DNA of 64,000 nucleotides from Candidatus Saccharimonadota bacterium. Its GTDB lineage: Bacteria; Patescibacteriota; Saccharimonadia; Saccharimonadales; UBA4665. The translations under genes and the position numbers were made by a program. Under the pieces are notes generated by a model. That model was given only the letters and a program-made list of their open reading frames with translations. It was not told where the DNA came from and ran no database searches. The stretch lies in NCBI GenBank assembly GCA_020427985.1, contig JAGQNR010000001.1:153784-217783 (forward strand). Reading direction: 5' to 3'. Of the stretch, positions 1,464-16,435 are shown one piece after another; within the stretch, counting starts at the first letter, position 1; every line of letters starts with the position of its first letter.

Positions 1464-1492
1464 TTGAGCAAACAGTGATTTTGCGGTATACT
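1464..1492 (+). promoter_or_regulatory. promoter of rpmF-nusB cluster
   Basis: TTGAGC (1464-1469), 17-base spacer, TATACT (1487-1492). A leader of about 40 bases with a good AAGGAG site precedes rpmF, so this is a conventional leadered transcript. Confidence 0.6.
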
Positions 1493-1536
1493 TGTACCAA
1501 ATAATAACCAAAACTCTAGAAGGAGTTAGTACATAT

Positions 1537-1698
1537 ATGGGTAAACCAAAGAAGCGAACGAGCCCACGCGCTACTGGCGCACGTCGCAGCCACTTGATTG
1601 TTAAGCTGGCACGAGCCGTCAACAAAAAGTCTCCCGTCAAGGCCTATACTACCCGCCGCGAAAGCGGTAAAACACTTGCCGCCAAGGCCGGCAAGTAG
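1537..1698 (+). CDS. rpmF: ribosomal protein bL32-like
   Basis: Very basic 53-residue protein beginning MGKPKKRTSPR, which resembles the start of bL32 of the large ribosomal subunit. The usual C-terminal zinc-ribbon cysteines are absent, so it would be a zinc-independent and rather divergent form. The ATG at 1537 is preceded by AGAAGGAG at good spacing; a more upstream in-frame ATG has no such site. It leads a cluster with nusB and, further on, rnc, and bL32 is often encoded near rnc. Length and basic composition fit a ribosomal protein; the exact family is less certain. Confidence 0.65.
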   Translation: MGKPKKRTSPRATGARRSHLIVKLARAVNKKSPVKAYTTRRESGKTLAAKAGK

Positions 1699-1726
1699 CC
1701 CTTCTTAACAGAGGAGCCTAAAGTCA

Positions 1727-2224
1727 ATGGCTAGTAATCGTCACCTTGGTCGTATTGTTGCACTACAAACGCTCTATGAACAAGACTTTCGCCTAGAATC
1801 AAATGACGAATCGTTTGATCTTGCCGAGGTCTTAAACCGAAATATTGCCCGTTACCAATCAACAGTCGATGACAAAGATTTCATTGTCAATCTTGTTAAT
1901 GGTGTGAGCGAGCGTATTAAACAGCTAGACGCCGAGCTAACCCCCTTGGCACCTGAATGGCCGCTTGACCAAATCGCCCGAATGGACCGCGTTGTACTAC
2001 GTATAGGGCTATATGAACTGCGCCACAACCAAGACGTTCCGCCTAAAGTGGTGATTAACGAAGCAGTCGAACTGGCCAAGGCATTTGGCGGTGACAACAG
2101 TAGCAAGTTTATTAATGGTGTGCTAGGCACTGCCCTAAATGGCAAACGTGCAGTAACCACAGATGATGCTACGATTAATCCAAACGATGAAACCGCTTTG
2201 AGCGACAAAGAAGAGAAAGCATAG
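1727..2224 (+). CDS. nusB: transcription antitermination factor NusB
   Basis: NusB binds boxA RNA with ribosomal protein S10 (NusE) and helps antitermination of rRNA operons. The 165-residue protein has the typical opening [17 protein letters not shown], the central [14 protein letters not shown] segment and the late [20 protein letters not shown] segment, all hallmarks of NusB. A short acidic tail follows. It lies 28 bases after rpmF with a GAGGAG site and is followed five bases later by a NUDIX gene, so the three are likely cotranscribed. Confidence 0.93.
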
Positions 2225-2229
2225 TACCT

Positions 2230-2775
2230 ATGAGCGAACACAAGCACGGGCAGCAATCGGCGCCGAGTAGCAAAGACGGTTTTATCAAAAAGCCGATTGA
2301 AGGGCTGCGTAAATTTGTGCAACGTAAGCCAGCCATCCAAGAAGTCGTGCACGAAACCACCTCGGGCGGCATAGTTTTTCGTCGCAACGACAAGGGTACG
2401 CTCGAAATATTACTCATAAAAGACGCCAAGAACCGCTGGACTATCCCCAAAGGGCACGTAGAAGAAGGCGAAGAGCCAAAAGACACTGCTGAACGTGAAA
2501 TTCGCGAAGAAACTGGCCTACAAGAAATGAAGGTTATGAACTGGTTAGGCAAGGTGAATTTTCGCTATCGTCGTACGCATACGCTGGTGCTCATGACCAT
2601 GCACATATATTTGGTAGAAGGTCTGGGTAACACCAATCGACTGCACCCAGAAGATTGGCTGAGTGACATTCAGTGGCTACCGGCTCATGAGGCGGTCGAT
2701 GCAATAGCCTACGAAGACATTGGTAAACTGATGCTGGTTGGCATGAAGAAAATAAGAGAAGGAAAGGCAAAATAG
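2230..2775 (+). CDS. NUDIX hydrolase
   Basis: Hydrolase of a nucleoside diphosphate linked to another moiety; the substrate cannot be told from sequence. The protein has a basic N-terminal extension of about 40 residues, then a NUDIX domain. The NUDIX box runs from Gly75 to Leu97 with the REIREET core, giving the metal-binding glutamates. It begins five bases after nusB and is probably translated from the same mRNA. The form resembles the diadenosine polyphosphate/decapping-like NUDIX proteins found in many small-genome bacteria, but that is only inference. Confidence 0.85.
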   Translation: MSEHKHGQQSAPSSKDGFIKKPIEGLRKFVQRKPAIQEVVHETTSGGIVFRRNDKGTLEILLIKDAKNRWTIPKGHVEEGEEPKDTAEREIREETGLQEMKVMNWLGKVNFRYRRTHTLVLMTMHIYLVEGLGNTNRLHPEDWLSDIQWLPAHEAVDAIAYEDIGKLMLVGMKKIREGKAK

Positions 2776-2850
2776 TTGGTAGTTTACAGTTTGTAGTTAT
2801 TAGTTACTTGTGACTAAAAACTATAAACTATCCCCTATAAACTAAGCAAT
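2776..2850. repeat. AT-rich intergenic segment with TAGTTTA/TAAACTA inverted repeats
   Basis: Copies of TAGTTTA-like words are followed by TAAACTA-like words, so the spacer between the NUDIX gene and rnc can fold into one or two AT-rich hairpins. A TATAAA (2836-2841) nine bases before the rnc ATG could be its -10 element. No Shine-Dalgarno site precedes rnc. Confidence 0.4.
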
Positions 2851-3543
2851 ATGGACACAACACTGTACCAAGACATAGCGGCTTCTAAACTTGGGGGCAA
2901 TTTTAGCAACCTAGAGCTGCTTATCACTGCATTTACGCACCGTTCGTACTTAAACGAGCACAAAAAATCGGCCAGCGAGCACAATGAACGGCTCGAATTT
3001 TTGGGCGATGCCGTGCTAGAACTGGTAGTAACCGAATATTTGTACACGCACTACAGTGAACCCGAAGGGATTTTAACTAACTGGCGGAGTAGTTTGGTAC
3101 GCACAGAAAGCATTGGTGCTGCGGCAACACGGCTCGGTTTTGAGCCACTGCTACGGCTGAGTCGAGGTGAAAAACGGGGCACCGAAAGGGCACGTGCGCA
3201 GATTCTTGCCAACTGCTTCGAGGCGGTGACAGGTGCGCTGTATCTAGAGCGTGGCTACGATGCTTGCAAAGATTTTATAACCGAAAACATTCTTTCGACC
3301 TTTGACGAAATTCTAAAGACCGGGTCATGGATGGATCCTAAGTCTCGATTGCAAGAAGTCACCCAAAGCCAGGTAGGCGTAACACCAAACTACCGCGTGC
3401 TTACCGAAGACGGCCCAGACCACGAAAAAACGTTCCGTGTTGGTGTTTTCCTGGACGACAAAAAAATAGGCGAAGGCACCGGCCCAAGCAAACAGGCCGC
3501 CCAAGTCGCCGCCGCCACCACTGCGTTGAAAAAGTACGTGTAG
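2851..3543 (+). CDS. rnc: ribonuclease III
   Basis: Double-strand-specific endoribonuclease for rRNA precursor and mRNA processing. The 230-residue protein has the RNase III signature NERLEFLGDAVL (about 45-56) carrying catalytic acidic residues, a second acidic site in the FEAVTGALYLERG segment, and a C-terminal double-stranded RNA-binding domain (about 160-230, ending in GTGPSKQAAQVAAATTALKK). Length is normal for the family. It follows rpmF, nusB and the NUDIX gene and probably has its own AT-rich promoter immediately upstream. Confidence 0.96.
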   Translation: MDTTLYQDIAASKLGGNFSNLELLITAFTHRSYLNEHKKSASEHNERLEFLGDAVLELVVTEYLYTHYSEPEGILTNWRSSLVRTESIGAAATRLGFEPLLRLSRGEKRGTERARAQILANCFEAVTGALYLERGYDACKDFITENILSTFDEILKTGSWMDPKSRLQEVTQSQVGVTPNYRVLTEDGPDHEKTFRVGVFLDDKKIGEGTGPSKQAAQVAAATTALKKYV

Positions 3544-8469: not shown

Positions 8470-10839
8470 TTAGTGTTTCCACTCCCAATTACGAACTTCG
8501 GGCATATCAAGGCCATTGGCCTGGATGTAGTTGGTGTGTTCGACGAGTTTTTGCTGCATCAGGGTTTTGAGTGTAGTAGCTTGTTCTGACTGTAGCCCTG
8601 TGCGCTCAATAACATCAAGTACTAAATGGAAGCGGTCCATTTCGTTTTTTACTGTCATATCAAAGGCGGTGGTAATAGTGCCTTCTTCTTTGTAGCCGCG
8701 TACGTGCAGTCGTTGGTTAGTGCGTCGGTACACTAATCGGTGAATGAGCCATGGGTAGCCGTGAAAAGCAAATATAATCGGCTTGTCTATAGTGAATAGG
8801 CGATTATAGTCCATGTCGCTGAGACCGTGTGGGTGCTCGGTGTCGGGTTGAAGCTTCATGAGGTCTACAACATTCACTACCCGAATCTTGAGTTCAGGCA
8901 AATGCTCACGTAAGATTGATACGGCAGCCATACTTTCGAGCGTAGGGATATCCCCGGCTGCGGCCATCACGACATCTGGTTCGCCACTCTCGTCATTTGA
9001 AGCCCACTCCCACTTGCTCACACCGGCGCTGCAATGCTCAACAGCCTGTTCCATAGTGAGCCATTGCGGTGCTTCATGCTTACCACAAACAGTGAGGTTA
9101 ATATAGTTGCGGCTGCGCAAACAGTGGTCCATGACACTCAGTAAGGTATTGGCATCGGGTGGCAAATACACACGGGCCACTTCGGCCTTTTTGTTAACAA
9201 GATGATCAATGAACCCCGGGTCTTGATGAGTAAACCCGTTGTGGTCTTGGCGCCATACATGCGAAGTAAGTAGGAAGTTGAGCGACGAAATCGGTTCACG
9301 CCAAGCGAGCTCGTTACACATTTTTATCCACTTAGCATGCTGATTGACCATGCTGTCGACAATGCGGATAAAAGCTTCATAACTGTTAAGAATACCGTGT
9401 CGGCCGGTGAGTAAGTAGCCCTCAAGCCAGCCCTCTGCCTGATGTTCGCTTAGCTGAGAATCAAGTACAGCACCTTCGGTTGCCAAAAACTCATCAGTGT
9501 CTTTCGTGCGTGCATTCCATTGCCGATTAGTTGTTTCAAACAAGGCTTCAAGGCGGTTACTAACTGTTTCATCGGGACAAAATATACGGAAGTTTTTTTG
9601 CTGAGCGTTGAGCTTAATAACGTCGCGCAGCCATGGACCGAGGATGTGGGTATTGCCAGCATTGACAATGCTCGGGTATTTGACTTCGACAGCATATTCT
9701 CTAAAATCGGGCAGACGTAATTCGCGGAGCAGTTGACCACCATTGGCGTAAGGACTTGCGCCCATGCGTTTAACGCCCGTTGGAGCTAGTTGGGCAAGCT
9801 CGGAACGAAGCCGTCCATCTTGCTCAAACAGTTCCTCTGGCTTATAACTACGCAGCCAGTCTTCAAGTAGCTGCAGGTTTTCGGGGTGTTCGGCATCGAC
9901 AAGGAAGGGTACTTGATGCGAACGGAAGTTGTTTTCGTTGGCTTTGCCATCGACTACTTTTGGACCAGTCCAACCTTTGGGAGACCGCAGGATAATCATT
10001 GGCCAGCGCGGACGAGTTGTATCAGCGGCGTTGCGGGCATTGTTTTGAATGCGGGCAATTTCATCCATTACTTCATCCATGACAGCTGCCATGCGTTGGT
10101 GCATATGTTCGGGCTCGTCGCCCTCTACAAAGTAGGGTGTCCAGCCATAACCACGGAATAATTGCTCAAGCTCCTCATGTTCAATACGCGCAAGAAGAGT
10201 TGGGTTGCTAATTTTGTAGCCATTGAGGTGCAAAATAGGCAAAACAACCCCGTCAGTTTTAGCATTTAAGAACTTATTACTATGCCAGGCAGTGGCGAGT
10301 GGACCGGTTTCGGCCTCACCATCACCGACCACACAAGCTGCTATTAGATTTGGGTTATCAAACACTGCCCCAAATGCATGACTTAGGCTGTACCCCAGCT
10401 CGCCACCTTCGTGAATAGAGCCAGGAACTTGGGGCGATACATGGCTACTGAGTCCACCTGGCCAAGAGAACTGCTGAAACAAACGCCGCATACCGGCTTC
10501 GTTTTGAGGCATGTCAGGATAAACTTCGCTCCAGGTGCCTTCTAGATAGGTATGGCACATCAGCGAGGGGCCGCCGTGCCCGGGACCCGAGAGGTAAATC
10601 ATGTCGATGTCGCGCTGTTTGATGGCGCGGTTGAGGTGCGTGTAAATAAAGTTTTGGCCCGGTGAAGTCCCCCAGTGCCCGAGTAGCATGCTCTTAATAT
10701 CACCAAGCTCGAGGGGGCGCTTAAGTAAGGGGTTGTCCCGCAAATAGATTTGTCCGACCGATAGATAGTTGGACGCACGCCAATACGCATCGAGCTTTTG
10801 TAGTTCCTCGTGAGTAAGTGGCGTTTCTGTAGTTTGCAT
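8470..10839 (-). CDS. xfp: xylulose-5-phosphate/fructose-6-phosphate phosphoketolase
   Basis: Thiamine-diphosphate enzyme that splits xylulose 5-phosphate (or fructose 6-phosphate) with phosphate to acetyl phosphate and glyceraldehyde 3-phosphate (or erythrose 4-phosphate). The 789-residue protein is full length. Visible features are HWGTSPG (about 55-61), GPGHGGP (85-91) and the ThDP site GDGEAETGP (172-180); the C-terminal half holds [19 protein letters not shown] and [10 protein letters not shown]. It starts nine bases after ackA with an AGGAG site, so acetyl phosphate would be used directly by AckA to make ATP. Confidence 0.97.
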
Positions 10840-10848
10840 AGGGACTCC

Positions 10849-12024
10849 TTATGTTTTTGATTGTTTACAGATAAAATCGAAAGTTTTATGAGCGATGGTG
10901 TAGGCCTCGTTGGTGTGAATAACATGCACTCCGACGCTTGAATCATCGGCAGAGATGAGTCTATCGCCGGCAGAATTGCGCGCCGGGTCAATGATAACAC
11001 CTAAATACTGCAAATCTCGGCAAATACGCTCACGAATTTCGGCTGAGCGTTCTCCAATTCCACCGCTAAAAATAAGGCTGTTAATACCGCCAAGTGCGGC
11101 GCTTAGGCTTCCAATAGCTTTGCGAGCCTGATAACAAAACAGCTCTACTGCTTCAGCGGCACGTGGGTCGGAAGCTTGGTTTTGAAGTAGCCAGTGCATA
11201 TCGGCAGTGGTGCCTGAAACACCAAGTAGCCCCGACTGTTTGTTGACTATCTCTGAAAACTCGGGGATAGTTATTCCCTTAACCGCATGCAAAAACTCCA
11301 CTACTCCTGGGTCAATGTCGCCGCTACGAGTGCTCATCATTAGGCCTGATGTGGGACTAAGCCCCATTGTCATGTCAACAGCTTGTCCGTCTGTGGTAGC
11401 TGCAATACTGGCTCCGCTGCCCAAGTGGGCCATGATAACCTTGCCCCGCGCCGCCGCTTCACCCTCGTGCTGTGCAAAATTACGAAGCAAATAAGTGTAG
11501 GATAGGCCGTGAAAACCATAGCGTCGGAGTCCTTGTTCTCGAAAGATGCGTGGCAAGGCAATGGTTTGAGCTACAAGAGGAATATTGTGAAAAAAAGAGG
11601 TGTCAAAGCAAGCTATCTGTGGAATCCCAGTAAAAACTTGTTGAGAGAGCGTCATGCTATCAATGGCAGCGGGCAAGTGATTTGGGTCGATAGTTTTAAG
11701 CGTTTTGAGCTGGTCAAGCATAGTCACAGTAATTGCAGTTGGTTCAGTAAACATTTCGCCGCCATGCACCACCCGGTGTCCGACTGCTGCAATGGGGTGC
11801 TGGTGAATGATTGGCTCAAGACACTGTAAAATGGCTTTAAAGGCTTGCTGATGGCTTTGCGCATCGGTGGCGTCCCCCTTGGAAGTAAGTGAAGTGTAGA
11901 GCGTTGGGGAGGTTCCAATGTCTTCGATACTTGCAACAAATAGTTCTTGAAGGGGTTCTTCTGCACTAAAGAGTGCAGCTTTGATACTAGATGACCCCGC
12001 GTTAATAGTGAGAATGCTAGCCAT
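10849..12024 (-). CDS. ackA: acetate kinase
   Basis: Transfers phosphate from acetyl phosphate to ADP, making ATP and acetate. The 391-residue protein begins MASILTINAGSSSIKAAL, the conserved ASKHA phosphate-binding start, and contains GHRVVHGGE, CFDTSFFH and the late SGGIGERSAEIR. The ATG at 12024 is chosen because it gives exactly the family start; the frame stays open 63 bases further but that region overlaps a promoter. First gene of the ackA-xfp operon, the energy-yielding end of the phosphoketolase path. No phosphate acetyltransferase is nearby. Confidence 0.96.
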   Translation of the reverse strand: MASILTINAGSSSIKAALFSAEEPLQELFVASIEDIGTSPTLYTSLTSKGDATDAQSHQQAFKAILQCLEPIIHQHPIAAVGHRVVHGGEMFTEPTAITVTMLDQLKTLKTIDPNHLPAAIDSMTLSQQVFTGIPQIACFDTSFFHNIPLVAQTIALPRIFREQGLRRYGFHGLSYTYLLRNFAQHEGEAAARGKVIMAHLGSGASIAATTDGQAVDMTMGLSPTSGLMMSTRSGDIDPGVVEFLHAVKGITIPEFSEIVNKQSGLLGVSGTTADMHWLLQNQASDPRAAEAVELFCYQARKAIGSLSAALGGINSLIFSGGIGERSAEIRERICRDLQYLGVIIDPARNSAGDRLISADDSSVGVHVIHTNEAYTIAHKTFDFICKQSKT

Positions 12025-12056
12025 GTAGCTTCCCACCCAAGATACTAAGCATAACC

Positions 12057-12087
12057 ATAGTATGAGGCGGCGTACCTCAGTTGTCAA
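12057..12087 (-). promoter_or_regulatory. promoter of ackA-xfp operon
   Basis: Minus-strand TTGACA (12082-12087), 19-base spacer, TACTAT (12057-12062), with a leader of about 25 bases holding a weak GGGAAG site. The long spacer makes it a moderate match. Confidence 0.5.
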
Positions 12088-12170
12088 CAGCGGTCAAGAG
12101 TTTTCATTGTAGTGATGAAGCCCACACATTACGCGTGAGATATTTTACAGTTGCAGCTTTGCATAGTCGT

Positions 12171-12176
12171 TATACT
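12171..12176 (+). promoter_or_regulatory. -10 element of 40-residue ORF
   Basis: TATACT about 30 bases before the small ORF; the leader has AAAGGAG. No good -35 at standard spacing. Confidence 0.45.
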
Positions 12177-12205
12177 TAGAGTTAGTAAATCAAAGGAGAA
12201 TAAGT

Positions 12206-12328
12206 ATGGACAAAGTAGCACAGCAAAAGCTCGGCCTTACTGAGCGCTCAGATGACGAACTCCATTCTGTGGTTAACCGATTTCAGGCTAAGTGGAACGA
12301 CAAGGCAAGGCGACTTGGTATTCAGTAG
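12206..12328 (+). CDS. 40-residue hypothetical protein
   Basis: Small charged protein (MDKVAQQKLGLTERSDDEL...) with its own -10 element, an AAAGGAG ribosome-binding site at ideal spacing, and a strong terminator 27 bases after the stop, so it is a complete transcription unit. Predicted mostly helical. No family recognised. The well-formed signals make it more likely real than most short ORFs. Confidence 0.65.
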   Translation: MDKVAQQKLGLTERSDDELHSVVNRFQAKWNDKARRLGIQ

Positions 12329-12354
12329 TTTGTGTGCAAACACCCACGTCTTTT

Positions 12355-12386
12355 AAAGAGCCCTATTTGCGAGAGGGGCTCTTTTT
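12355..12386 (+). terminator. terminator of small ORF, opposite pyrD end
   Basis: AAAGAGCCC, short loop, GGGGCTCTTTTT; lies three bases from the pyrD stop and may serve both strands. Confidence 0.85.
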
Positions 12387-12388
12387 GA

Positions 12389-13528
12389 TTATTGCGCGGC
12401 GGCTTGAGCATCCAGTCCAATTGCTTCGCCAATGGAAGAAAGACCATCTTTTTGCAGCAAACTGACCAAGTCTCGGTTAATTTGCCCTATTAACTGCGGT
12501 CCTTCATAGATTAATCCAGTGATGAGTTCGACAAGGCTCGCTCCAAGACGAATCTTTTGATAAGCATCGTGGGCATTAAAAACGCCGCCGACGCCAATAA
12601 TAGTGAGCCGGTCATTGTAGTGCAGATACGTCTTGGCAATCAAGGCATTGCTGAGTGCCTGGGTAGGCCTGCCGCTCAGATTACCTTTTACCTGGGATGG
12701 CAATTCTCCAGATGGTATTTCACCTCGATTTTTATTTAGGTTACCAATAGTGACTGCTTGCACATTGTAGCGACAGGCTACTTCTAGCAGCGGCTGAAAC
12801 TCGTGCCAGGGCAGGTTAATGGGCATTTTTATCCAGAGTGGTTTGGTGCTATGAGTAGCCCGCAGGGCTGCTAACAGACGGCTCAGCTTTTCGGGCGTGG
12901 TAAAAGGCTCGCCGCCATATGTATTGGGACAAGAAATGTTGATTTCTAATGCCCGAACACCGGCAACTGCATTCAGGCGCTTAGCACTTATACAATAATC
13001 TAGAATAGCAGCTTCTTCGCTACAGGCTCTGGCCGAGTTTGTTCTAGCGATTGAGGCAACAATTGGGAAGGTAGCCGTGATGCCCAAAGATAGCTTGTCT
13101 AGTTGTGCACCAACACGGGCAGCACCATCATTAGGCAGTCCGGCGTTCACTACGAGCGCTTGAGATTTGGGGAGCCGATAAAACCATGGTTTTGGGTTGC
13201 CCGCACATGGCTCAGCCGAAATAGACCCAACTGTACTAAAACCAAACCCAATACGCTGGCAAATCGGCGGTAACTGAGCATTCTTATCGAGTCCGGCCGA
13301 AAGACCAATTGGATTGGCAAAACTAACTGAGCCAATTTTTTGCGCTAACACTGCAGGATTGTCGTATGCCCACATGAAATGCAGTATCCTAGATAGCCGC
13401 AATAACTCCCTATGCTGTGCATATTGAATCATAGTTTCATGAACGTAATCCGGCGGTTTTTTAAAGAGGGCAGGTTTGATTGCTTTTTTGTAAACAAGCT
13501 GCGAACATCGAGATAAAACATCTACCAT
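12389..13528 (-). CDS. pyrD: dihydroorotate dehydrogenase, class 2 (quinone-dependent)
   Basis: Oxidises dihydroorotate to orotate in pyrimidine synthesis, passing electrons to quinone at the membrane. The N-terminal 40-50 residues are a basic amphipathic helical extension as in class 2 enzymes, followed by the barrel: NPIGLSAGLDKNA (FMN), VNAGLPNDG, and EINISCPNTYGG. Catalytic base should be Ser in class 2. The ATG at 13528 is favoured because a TATACT lies nine bases upstream. No other pyr genes are in the window. A quinone-linked enzyme implies some respiratory chain, unusual for a CPR bacterium but known in some Saccharibacteria. Confidence 0.92.
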   Translation of the reverse strand: MVDVLSRCSQLVYKKAIKPALFKKPPDYVHETMIQYAQHRELLRLSRILHFMWAYDNPAVLAQKIGSVSFANPIGLSAGLDKNAQLPPICQRIGFGFSTVGSISAEPCAGNPKPWFYRLPKSQALVVNAGLPNDGAARVGAQLDKLSLGITATFPIVASIARTNSARACSEEAAILDYCISAKRLNAVAGVRALEINISCPNTYGGEPFTTPEKLSRLLAALRATHSTKPLWIKMPINLPWHEFQPLLEVACRYNVQAVTIGNLNKNRGEIPSGELPSQVKGNLSGRPTQALSNALIAKTYLHYNDRLTIIGVGGVFNAHDAYQKIRLGASLVELITGLIYEGPQLIGQINRDLVSLLQKDGLSSIGEAIGLDAQAAAQ

Positions 13529-13537
13529 ACAGCCAAT

Positions 13538-13543
13538 AGTATA
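13538..13543 (-). promoter_or_regulatory. -10 element near pyrD start
   Basis: TATACT nine bases before the pyrD ATG, no Shine-Dalgarno site; leaderless or nearly so. Confidence 0.5.
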
Positions 13544-13573
13544 CACTTATATAAAAGTTAAAAGTGGCAGAAA

Positions 13574-14080
13574 CTATTGGTGGTTGTCTTCGCCAAGTCT
13601 ATTGAGCATGTCACAAAGCTCTTTTGTTCTAAGTTGGCTAGTATCTATAGCTCGCTGCTTAGCAATGATGTAGCCGTGAATAATGCGTTTGGCCCGCTCG
13701 GCATCACTTCGCCAAAAAGGCCCGATGTTGATTTCTTGTTCTTTATTCATAATGCGACTAATAATCATCACGCCACCAAAAAATGGACCAACCGTGCATG
13801 AAGCACTCAAAATGTCTTCGATACGAAAACTTTGCGTCTCAGCCATTAAAAAGAAAAAACGCTTGGTTACCGTGACCTTAGTACGGTCTACGGTGAGCGT
13901 GTGAGGGAAGGGAGTAAAGGGGAACATTGTTGATTCACGAAATAGTATTTCTTCGGCATCGTGAATGGCGCGGTTGAGCTCGGCTTTTGATTCTTCTCGT
14001 GTGAGGGGCTTGATACCAACAGGGGGCTGTGCTACAGGAGAGTCCGGAGGATTGGCCTGAGAAAATGTGTCGTTTTGCAT
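13574..14080 (-). CDS. hypothetical protein with PH-like middle region
   Basis: 168-residue soluble protein. A Pro-rich, charged N-terminus (about 1-45) precedes a beta-rich block (HTLTVDRTKVTVTKRFFF ... FRIEDILSASC) and a C-terminal helix (RAKRIIHGYIIAKQRA). The pattern of strands followed by one helix, with the phrase on signal-dependent FRIEDI..., resembles bacterial PH-like domains, but this is weak. AAGGA site at proper spacing before ATG. No function can be assigned. Confidence 0.6.
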   Translation of the reverse strand: MQNDTFSQANPPDSPVAQPPVGIKPLTREESKAELNRAIHDAEEILFRESTMFPFTPFPHTLTVDRTKVTVTKRFFFLMAETQSFRIEDILSASCTVGPFFGGVMIISRIMNKEQEINIGPFWRSDAERAKRIIHGYIIAKQRAIDTSQLRTKELCDMLNRLGEDNHQ

Positions 14081-14207: not shown

Positions 14208-14384
14208 ATGGCAAAGTTTGAGGTTTATGCTTCGGCAAAAGGCTGGCGTTGGCGACTTAAGGCTGGCAATGGTGAAGTCGTAGCAACGGGCGAAGAATAC
14301 ACTACCAAAGACGGTGCAATGCGTGGGTGCGAAGCAGTAGCCCGTGCAGCCGGTTCGGCCGATATTGTTGAGGTCGAAAGCTAG
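14208..14384 (+). CDS. DUF1508 (YegP-like) protein
   Basis: 58-residue protein MAKFEVYASAKGWRWRLKAG... with the DUF1508 pattern: two beta strands, WRW.LKAGNGEVVATGE, then YTTKDGAMRGCEAV. Family members are small alpha-beta proteins of unknown role, usually with one or two repeats; this has one. Very strong AAGGAGGGAG site. Its last bases overlap the stop of the convergent SulP gene. Confidence 0.85.
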   Translation: MAKFEVYASAKGWRWRLKAGNGEVVATGEEYTTKDGAMRGCEAVARAAGSADIVEVES

Positions 14385-16435
14385 ACTTTTTTAGTCTCAC
14401 GCTGGTGTTGACGGAGTAGTTTTAGGTCGTCCAGGTCTTTTTGGCGACCTATTTTTTGTTTAGCGGCAATGAGGTCGTCGACTGACATAAATCGAACCTC
14501 TTCTAGTATAAAACTTTTGGGCTTAAGGTCGCGCAGCGATTTGCCAACATAACGCAGCATAACCTGGTAGCCGTGATGTGAGAGTATTCGCTTGCCATCA
14601 TCCTGCACGTATTCGCGCCAGCCCTCTTTAACAAAATGTTTATACAGACTATCACTAACAACTAGGTCAACATCGTTTGTGTCGCGTAGCTTAAGTGCCT
14701 CAAGCACCCCGCCACCAATTACGACATAATTGTCAGAAGATATATCGAGCCGTTTTACCATATCAACGGTCGAGCGCTTGCTGGTTGGTAGATCAAAAAT
14801 TGCTTCTTCCAGACTGGCGTAAACATTGCCTTCGCCAACGATGTCGAGCAAGCCATACTGCTCTAAAACCGCACTAAGGGCGGGAGGCACATGGGCAAGT
14901 ATGAGGCGGATGTCGTCAGCGTAGAGTTTTTGGCAAAGGTGTTTGAGCATCTCGGCAGCGGTATAGTCAATGTCGTTAACGGCCCCTGCGTCAATTATAA
15001 GGGTCGAAACCGGTTCTTTAGATTTTTCGAGCGTGGTAATGACTCGTTTTTTAAAATAGTCAGCATTCTCAAAAAAAATCGAACCAGCAAATCGATACAC
15101 AACTGTGCCGTGAGGCGAGGAGCGATACTTGTGGTGTTTGGCGAGTCGTTCGTCGGCCCAGGGCGCTAGGGTACCATCCTGTAAGAGTACCGTATCGTCT
15201 GGTCGATACTGACGCCGCAGCCTATCGATAATAGACAGTGCCACCGCCAGCGCCACGCCATATTCAACTCCAAGGACCACTACCCCAAACATAGCAGTAA
15301 TAGCAATCCAAAATTCTGTACGCCGGGTAGTATAAATATGTTTGAGCTTTGAAACATCAAACAGATGAAGTCCAATCATAACAATAACCACCGCCAGCGC
15401 CGCCACGGGTAAATATTTGAGTGCTTCAGAAAACAACATTAACACCGCACCAATCAGAAGTGCCATAAACACATTAACCAACTGACTTCTACCGCCCGAC
15501 ATCTCTGCGGCAGTTGTACGAGGGGGGCTGCCATTTACCGCAAAGCCATGCGATAGCGCTGAGGTAATGTTGGCCAGCCCCAAAGCCGCCAGGTCGCGGT
15601 TGTCGTCAACGGGTTCGTCGTAGCGAGTTGCGGTGTTGCGGATGACACTAGTGCTCTGAGCTAAGATAACTGCAGCAATGGCAAGTGCAGTCGGGAACAG
15701 AGCAGAAAGTAACGCAATATCAAAATGAGGTATGGCAAGACCGGGTAGCCCGCTTGGTACATCGCCCACCATTTTAACACCTTGTACTTCGAGATGTAGA
15801 GCAGCAGCCAGAGCTATACCAACCACCAATACCAGCAGGCTGCCTGGGAGTTTGCGTCTATTAGCAACGCTAGCGACCCCAAACAGAACAACAGACAACA
15901 CAAGTGTGGTAAGGTGAGTTTCAAAAATATGACTGATGGTGCCCACTAACTTCACAAGTGTTGCTCCGTGCATTGATAGCCCCAGCAGTTCGGGGAGCTT
16001 GCCAAGCATAAGCTGCAAGCCAATACCCGCGAGCAGGCCAATAAACACCGGTTTTGAAATCAAATCTGCCAAAAATCCAAAACGCAGTCCCGCCATCGCC
16101 AAAAGCACCAAACCACTCAGTATTGTTAAAACAGCAATGGCGTTTGTGTAATCGGCCGAACCGGCAGCCGCAATCGAGGCAGCGCCCGACGCCACTAAAG
16201 CTGCCGTTGCAGAATCGGCGCCAATAACTAAGTGTTTTGACGAAGTGGTCAGTGCAAACACAATCGGGGCAATCAGTGCACAGTACAAACCTGTTTGGAT
16301 TGGCAAACCAACAATTGCAGCAAAACCGAGCGACTCTGGGATAGCAATTGCCGTCACAACAAGAGCTGCCATAAAATCAGCTCGCAACCGTTTTTTAGTA
16401 AAACCTTGTATATTTGTAAACTGAGCAAATGTCAT
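14381..16435 (-). CDS. SulP transporter with STAS and fused nucleotidyltransferase-like domain
   Basis: Anion transporter of the SLC26/SulP family (sulfate, bicarbonate or similar; substrate not told by sequence). Residues about 1-420 hold the membrane core, with the N-terminal AIPESLGFAAIVGLPIQTGLY. A STAS domain follows (about 440-550, TLIIDAGAVNDIDYTAAEML). Residues 559-684 form an extra domain with GGG at 574-576 and DVD at 588-590, matching the nucleotidyltransferase-fold hallmark hG[GS]...Dh[DE]h, then a helical end. Such a fusion is unusual; SulP proteins more often carry carbonic anhydrase or UspA domains. A TATACT lies 13 bases upstream of ATG. Confidence 0.9.
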   Translation of the reverse strand: MTFAQFTNIQGFTKKRLRADFMAALVVTAIAIPESLGFAAIVGLPIQTGLYCALIAPIVFALTTSSKHLVIGADSATAALVASGAASIAAAGSADYTNAIAVLTILSGLVLLAMAGLRFGFLADLISKPVFIGLLAGIGLQLMLGKLPELLGLSMHGATLVKLVGTISHIFETHLTTLVLSVVLFGVASVANRRKLPGSLLVLVVGIALAAALHLEVQGVKMVGDVPSGLPGLAIPHFDIALLSALFPTALAIAAVILAQSTSVIRNTATRYDEPVDDNRDLAALGLANITSALSHGFAVNGSPPRTTAAEMSGGRSQLVNVFMALLIGAVLMLFSEALKYLPVAALAVVIVMIGLHLFDVSKLKHIYTTRRTEFWIAITAMFGVVVLGVEYGVALAVALSIIDRLRRQYRPDDTVLLQDGTLAPWADERLAKHHKYRSSPHGTVVYRFAGSIFFENADYFKKRVITTLEKSKEPVSTLIIDAGAVNDIDYTAAEMLKHLCQKLYADDIRLILAHVPPALSAVLEQYGLLDIVGEGNVYASLEEAIFDLPTSKRSTVDMVKRLDISSDNYVVIGGGVLEALKLRDTNDVDLVVSDSLYKHFVKEGWREYVQDDGKRILSHHGYQVMLRYVGKSLRDLKPKSFILEEVRFMSVDDLIAAKQKIGRQKDLDDLKLLRQHQRETKKV

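Follow-up and report, generated by a model that had tools for sequence, protein, structure and literature searches.

A SulP transporter of Saccharimonadia with a nucleotidyltransferase-superfamily domain fused behind its STAS domain

The locus studied here raises the question of why a SulP transporter should carry a domain of the nucleotidyltransferase (NTase) superfamily at its C-terminus, and whether such a domain would act there as an enzyme or in some other capacity. The gene is located on the minus strand of the window, the whole stretch of 64,000 nucleotides that was analysed, where it spans positions 14381–16435 and encodes 684 amino acids from an ATG start in a single reading frame. 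The SulP transmembrane domain (residues 17–380; 15296–16387, minus strand) matches Sulfate_transp (PF00916, E 2.6e-71) at full length, over model positions 1–379 of 380, and its sequence relatives in the PDB are prestin, SULTR4;1 and SLC26A9. The STAS domain (residues 442–545; 14801–15112, minus strand; PF01740, E 3.3e-19) is followed by a linker of ~12 residues and then by the NTase-like domain (residues 558–680; 14396–14764, minus strand), which is supported by a family model of 56 copies and by hhalign. The last 139 residues of the protein fall outside both Pfam domains. The analysis confirms what the first-pass annotation had read as SulP, STAS and an additional C-terminal domain in one open reading frame, for which it had given no strand.

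The membrane and STAS domains, and their order, are the same as in SulP/SLC26 transporters that bear STAS at their C-terminus, such as BicA, DauA/YchM, SLC26A9 and SULTR4;1; however, the window protein has a further ~125 NTase-like residues after the STAS domain. Against TIGR00815 it scores 328.8, under the cut-off of 380.45, and it receives no BicA or DauA equivalog assignment. Other SulP proteins carry carbonic anhydrase, rhodanese or cyclic-nucleotide-binding domains, which likewise place a soluble domain on the cytoplasmic side, whereas the domain appended here belongs to the nucleotidyltransferase superfamily. A search of one literature collection found no report of a SulP protein with an appended domain of this superfamily.

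No Pfam family matches the C-terminal domain (residues ~558–680) above its curated cut-off, the window tail reaching 18.1 of the 20.3 bits required for DUF2204 (PF09970) and 14.8 of 23.6 for DUF6036 (PF19502). Relatives of the tail are present at E ≤ 1e-3 in 53 of the 393 genomes that we sampled from the class Saccharimonadia, and an iterated HMM search over loci from the class yielded the 56 distinct domain copies of the family model. The leading Pfam hits of family members are all to nucleotidyltransferase families, namely DUF6036 (10 copies), NTP_transf_5 (8), DUF2204 (5) and NTP_transf_2 (3). When set against a profile built from eight proteins of the DUF6036/DUF2204 type encoded by other Patescibacteria, the family aligns over 121 columns with an hhalign probability of 97.5% (E 7.3e-12); the columns pair glycine loop with glycine loop and DxD with DxD, and the K..KDxxDI segments fall on a common C-terminal helix. 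Used by themselves, the twelve closest SulP-fused copies score 96.9% against this profile, while the STAS domains of the same proteins, used as a negative control, score 0.3%. A chance motif match is ruled out by the 53 genomes with relatives, the hhalign result and the STAS control. The C-terminal domain is thus homologous, as judged by a family call that is solid at the sequence level, to the Pol-beta-type nucleotidyltransferases, and the profile-profile comparison bears out the relationship proposed in the first-pass annotation.

Structure-based comparison was less informative, with a search of the PDB using the sequence profile of the domain returning no NTase hit. An AlphaFold model of the domain built from two sequences, those of the window and of a named relative from a Candidatus Saccharibacteria MAG (L038), has a pLDDT of 49, reflecting too few sequences, and Foldseek returned zero hits for it at E ≤ 0.001. 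For the whole protein, also with two sequences, the pLDDT is 37, and it is near 30 even for the SulP part, the fold of which is known, so that these low values say nothing about the domain.

Residues that are near-invariant throughout the family comprise a GS/GG loop, Arg584, the pair Asp588-x-Asp590, Glu or Asp at position 624, Lys659 and Lys666-Asp667-x-x-Asp670. In the window protein, the family alignment assigns Gly574-Gly575 to motif I, hG[G/S] (14711–14716, minus strand as for all motifs here), and Asp588-Val-Asp590 to motif II (14666–14674). The GGG at 574–576 and the DVD at 588–590 are found exactly where they had been claimed, and the sequence fits the pattern hG[GS]x9-13DhD as IGG (573–575), 12 residues and DVD; judged by Asp588, this pattern is complete in 11 of the 15 SulP fusions. 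Further along lie Lys659 (14459–14461), in a position like that of the motif III lysine of AbiEii (PMC3985639), and the +DxxD pentad, KDLDD at 666–670 (14426–14440). The hG[G/S] loop, the late lysine and the pentad are shared with AbiEii/MenT (DUF1814), as is an arginine four residues before the DxD, Arg584 and Asp588 here corresponding to Arg63 and Asp67 in AbiEii (PMC3985639). The domain differs from AbiEii/MenT in that it is ~125 residues long, has a shorter spacing between motifs III and IV, is fused to a transporter and has lost the third acid; the window protein has no match to PF08843 (AbiEii/DUF1814) at E ≤ 1. No antitoxin domain is seen, the adjoining genes encoding a 168-residue protein, dihydroorotate dehydrogenase and 5-FTHF cyclo-ligase, and a PADLOC scan for defence systems gave nothing credible. 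With DUF6036, DUF2204 and NTP_transf_5 the family shares the GG/GS loop, the DxD, the late lysine and the KDxxD, but the window tail falls below all Pfam cut-offs, and the SulP-fused clade is without the third acid.

Full-length SulP proteins (PF00916) number 19 among the 393 genomes, and 15 of these carry the tail. An assembly or frameshift artefact is rejected because the same architecture is found in 15 separate genomes, including the single-contig assemblies G125, G130, G207 and G373. Outside the class, a sample of 380 genomes of the phylum has relatives of the domain only in open frames of up to 309 residues, and hence no fusion to SulP; no relatives were found in viral contigs, phages or plasmids. 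In a tree of the SulP-STAS part, the 15 fused proteins form one clade (support 100/100) within which a single unfused protein, that of G342, is nested, while the remaining unfused SulPs fall outside. The nested protein is best read from this placement as a secondary domain loss, one later event within the clade. The tree leaves out G236 owing to its very long branch; its SulP-like protein (locus L092, open reading frame at 1484–3133, plus strand) is unfused and has an odd amino-acid composition.

In the tree of the domain itself, once five long or divergent rows are omitted, a single branch (100/99) separates the 15 fused copies from the rest. Upon inclusion of these rows, a 509-residue protein with a branch length of 2.3 (L054) falls within the fused group, which is likely a long-branch effect. 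One ancient fusion event is the simplest reading of both trees. Since then the fusion has persisted in two families of Saccharimonadales. The mean pairwise identity is 0.483 in the domain, 0.490 in STAS and 0.521 in the membrane part, compared with 0.24 in the linker. The domain has a dN/dS of ~0.11, as estimated from the single close pair G207/G373 (19 synonymous and 8 nonsynonymous changes), which indicates purifying selection. That a neighbouring gene became joined in frame by chance and has since been carried along neutrally would fit the gene-dense, reduced genomes and the loss of the domain in G342; we nevertheless consider it highly improbable, given a single old fusion across two families, conservation like that of STAS and the low dN/dS. 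The SulP-nucleotidyltransferase fusion indicated by the first-pass annotation is therefore real and conserved.

In Pol-beta-type enzymes, the metals are held by three carboxylates, the third of which, in active members, belongs to an h[DE]h motif on the neighbouring strand. Column 624 of the family alignment (which aligns to known NTases only to within a few residues here), where this third acid is expected, holds Glu or Asp in 39 of the 41 copies that are not fused to SulP but in none of the 15 SulP fusions. These have Asn, Gln, Lys, Arg, Thr, Ile or Gly instead, with Gln624 (14564–14566) in the window protein. The contrast of 15/15 with 2/41 corresponds to a Fisher p of 8e-12 when kinship is ignored, and the loss probably happened only once, in the common ancestor of the SulP-fused clade. 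Asp588 is kept in 11 of the 15 fusions, and is replaced by Asn in G006, Ala in G220, Ser in G004 and Thr in G290, which amount to four separate changes on both the domain and the SulP-STAS trees. Rather than being lost in all homologues, the acidic pair thus retains Asp590 in every fusion and Asp588 in most. Invariant with Asp590 across the 15 fusions are Arg584, Lys659, Arg664 and the KDxxD, and Gly574 is also kept; Lys659 is in addition present in nearly all non-SulP copies. Three further residues are invariant specifically within the fused clade, namely Gly575, which is Ser in 35 of the 41 other copies, Lys615, mostly Asp or Glu elsewhere, and Met626, two places past the lost acid.

If the domain were still an active nucleotidyltransferase, it could modify the STAS domain, another protein or RNA via Asp588 and Asp590. 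The DxD is intact in the window protein and in 10 other fusions, Arg584, Lys659 and the KDxxD are invariant, and a site with two carboxylates can in principle hold a metal; however, the third acid is absent from all fusions, Asp588 has been lost repeatedly where the rest of the domain is kept, and in AbiEii even a conservative Asp to Glu change in the DxD abolishes activity (PMC3985639). We therefore regard an active enzyme as a minor contender. Catalysis by the SulP-fused domain appears unlikely from this pattern, although the two carboxylates left in 11 fusions would leave room for weak or altered catalysis. The first-pass annotation had offered nucleotide modification and sensing as possible roles; the former is not supported by the third-acid and Asp588 losses, and sensing appears the better of the two.

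The reading that we favour, to which we would give an even chance, is that the tail is a pseudo-nucleotidyltransferase that was gained once, has lost catalysis, binds a nucleotide or a partner and acts through STAS on transport. In an ancestor within the Saccharimonadales, the STAS domain of a SulP/SLC26-type transporter would have acquired, once, a C-terminal nucleotidyltransferase domain from a small stand-alone family that is common in Patescibacteria. Within the transporter, catalysis would have been given up, the third metal carboxylate disappearing and the first Asp becoming dispensable, while the glycine loop, Arg584, Asp590, Lys659 and KDxxD were retained and Gly575, Lys615 and Met626 became newly invariant. 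The tail would then bind a nucleotide, or a partner via the old active-site cleft, and STAS would relay the state of this site to the transporting part of the protein. From a pocket that is kept and a metal ligand that is lost, we infer a pseudo-enzyme with a binding role.

There is precedent for such a role in MiD51, a catalytically silent NTase-fold protein that binds nucleotide. Similarly, MAB21L1 adopts the NTase fold and has been observed with nucleotides bound, whereas transfer was not detected (PMC4897736). Both use the NTase fold for ligand binding or signalling, but they are animal cGAS-like proteins and serve as an analogy only. Closer to the family discussed here, mutation of the motif I glycine, the DxD or the motif IV (+DxxD) Asp residues of AbiEii reduces GTP binding and abolishes toxicity, for which the Arg four residues before the DxD and the late Lys are also required (PMC3985639). 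Nearly all of these residues are retained in the SulP-fused domain, which thus fits nucleotide binding. Since the double DxD mutant of AbiEii binds GTP poorly (PMC3985639), the lineages without Asp588 may bind nucleotide differently.

The STAS domain is regulatory in this transporter class, and SulP proteins function as dimers whose interface includes STAS (PMC6497670). The dimeric arrangement is also consistent with a docking or dimer-stabilising module that has no small-molecule ligand, the conserved residues then serving a protein interface or folding. Lys615 and Met626, as fused-clade-specific invariants outside the classic motifs, and the joining of the same domain to many unrelated proteins point in the same direction. 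However, the best-kept residues (Gly574, Arg584, Asp590, Lys659 and KDxxD) line the nucleotide site in relatives, and a scaffold need not keep them, such that we consider a docking module a possible but doubtful account. The pseudo-nucleotidyltransferase reading, in turn, has against it that G342 kept its transporter after losing the domain; the domain is thus not needed for transport as such.

Bacteria with such reduced genomes are thought to depend on a host for nucleotides and metabolites. Provided that the domain does bind nucleotides, a SulP/SLC26-type transporter of these organisms would possess a nucleotide-responsive switch, and the domain would clearly exemplify how an enzyme can be recruited as a sensor. 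More tentatively, the Patescibacteria may possess a new class of nucleotide-gated SulPs, in which the pseudo-NTase senses an NTP, NDP or dinucleotide and the same mobile domain regulates unrelated enzymes (UppS, NUDIX, IleRS, YbaK and methyltransferase). The presence of active stand-alone and silent fused copies within one family, if true, would allow a direct comparison.

Downstream of the transporter gene in the window lie genes for phosphoketolase, acetate kinase and dihydroorotate dehydrogenase (8470–13546, minus strand). Parts of this set also occur close to the fused SulP gene in some other genomes; as its composition varies between genera, we claim no pathway. The 168-residue protein encoded next to the transporter gene (13574–14080, minus strand) has no Pfam match at E ≤ 0.001.

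The domain, ~130 residues in length, is widespread in Patescibacteria, mostly as a stand-alone protein (31 of the 56 copies in the class set). It is absent from Pfam and NCBIfam as a curated family and is itself worth describing. Ten copies are fused to proteins other than SulP, and in eight of these every motif is retained, so that the missing third acid marks the transporter branch and not fusion generally. All motif residues are kept in two proteins with a YbaK-type aminoacyl-tRNA editing domain (L059, 486–1391, and L083, 384–1310, both minus strand), and the motifs are also intact in a UppS with an N-terminal nucleotidyltransferase domain (L056, 3689–4771, plus strand). Further fusions are to NUDIX (L089, 2699–3538), a methyltransferase (L086, 2299–3495) and an HD domain (L068, 1337–2437), all on the minus strand. 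The 509-residue protein of the long branch (L054, 7462–8991, plus strand) has a very divergent, motif-poor copy at residues 48–170 and no Pfam match anywhere. In two IleRS-like proteins, of 1477 residues (L057, 4711–9144, minus strand) and 1104 residues (L058, 6479–9793, plus strand), the NTase domain is inserted in the class I core, and the former contains additional insertions of a NUDIX (residues 252–383) and a histidine-phosphatase domain (844–1003).
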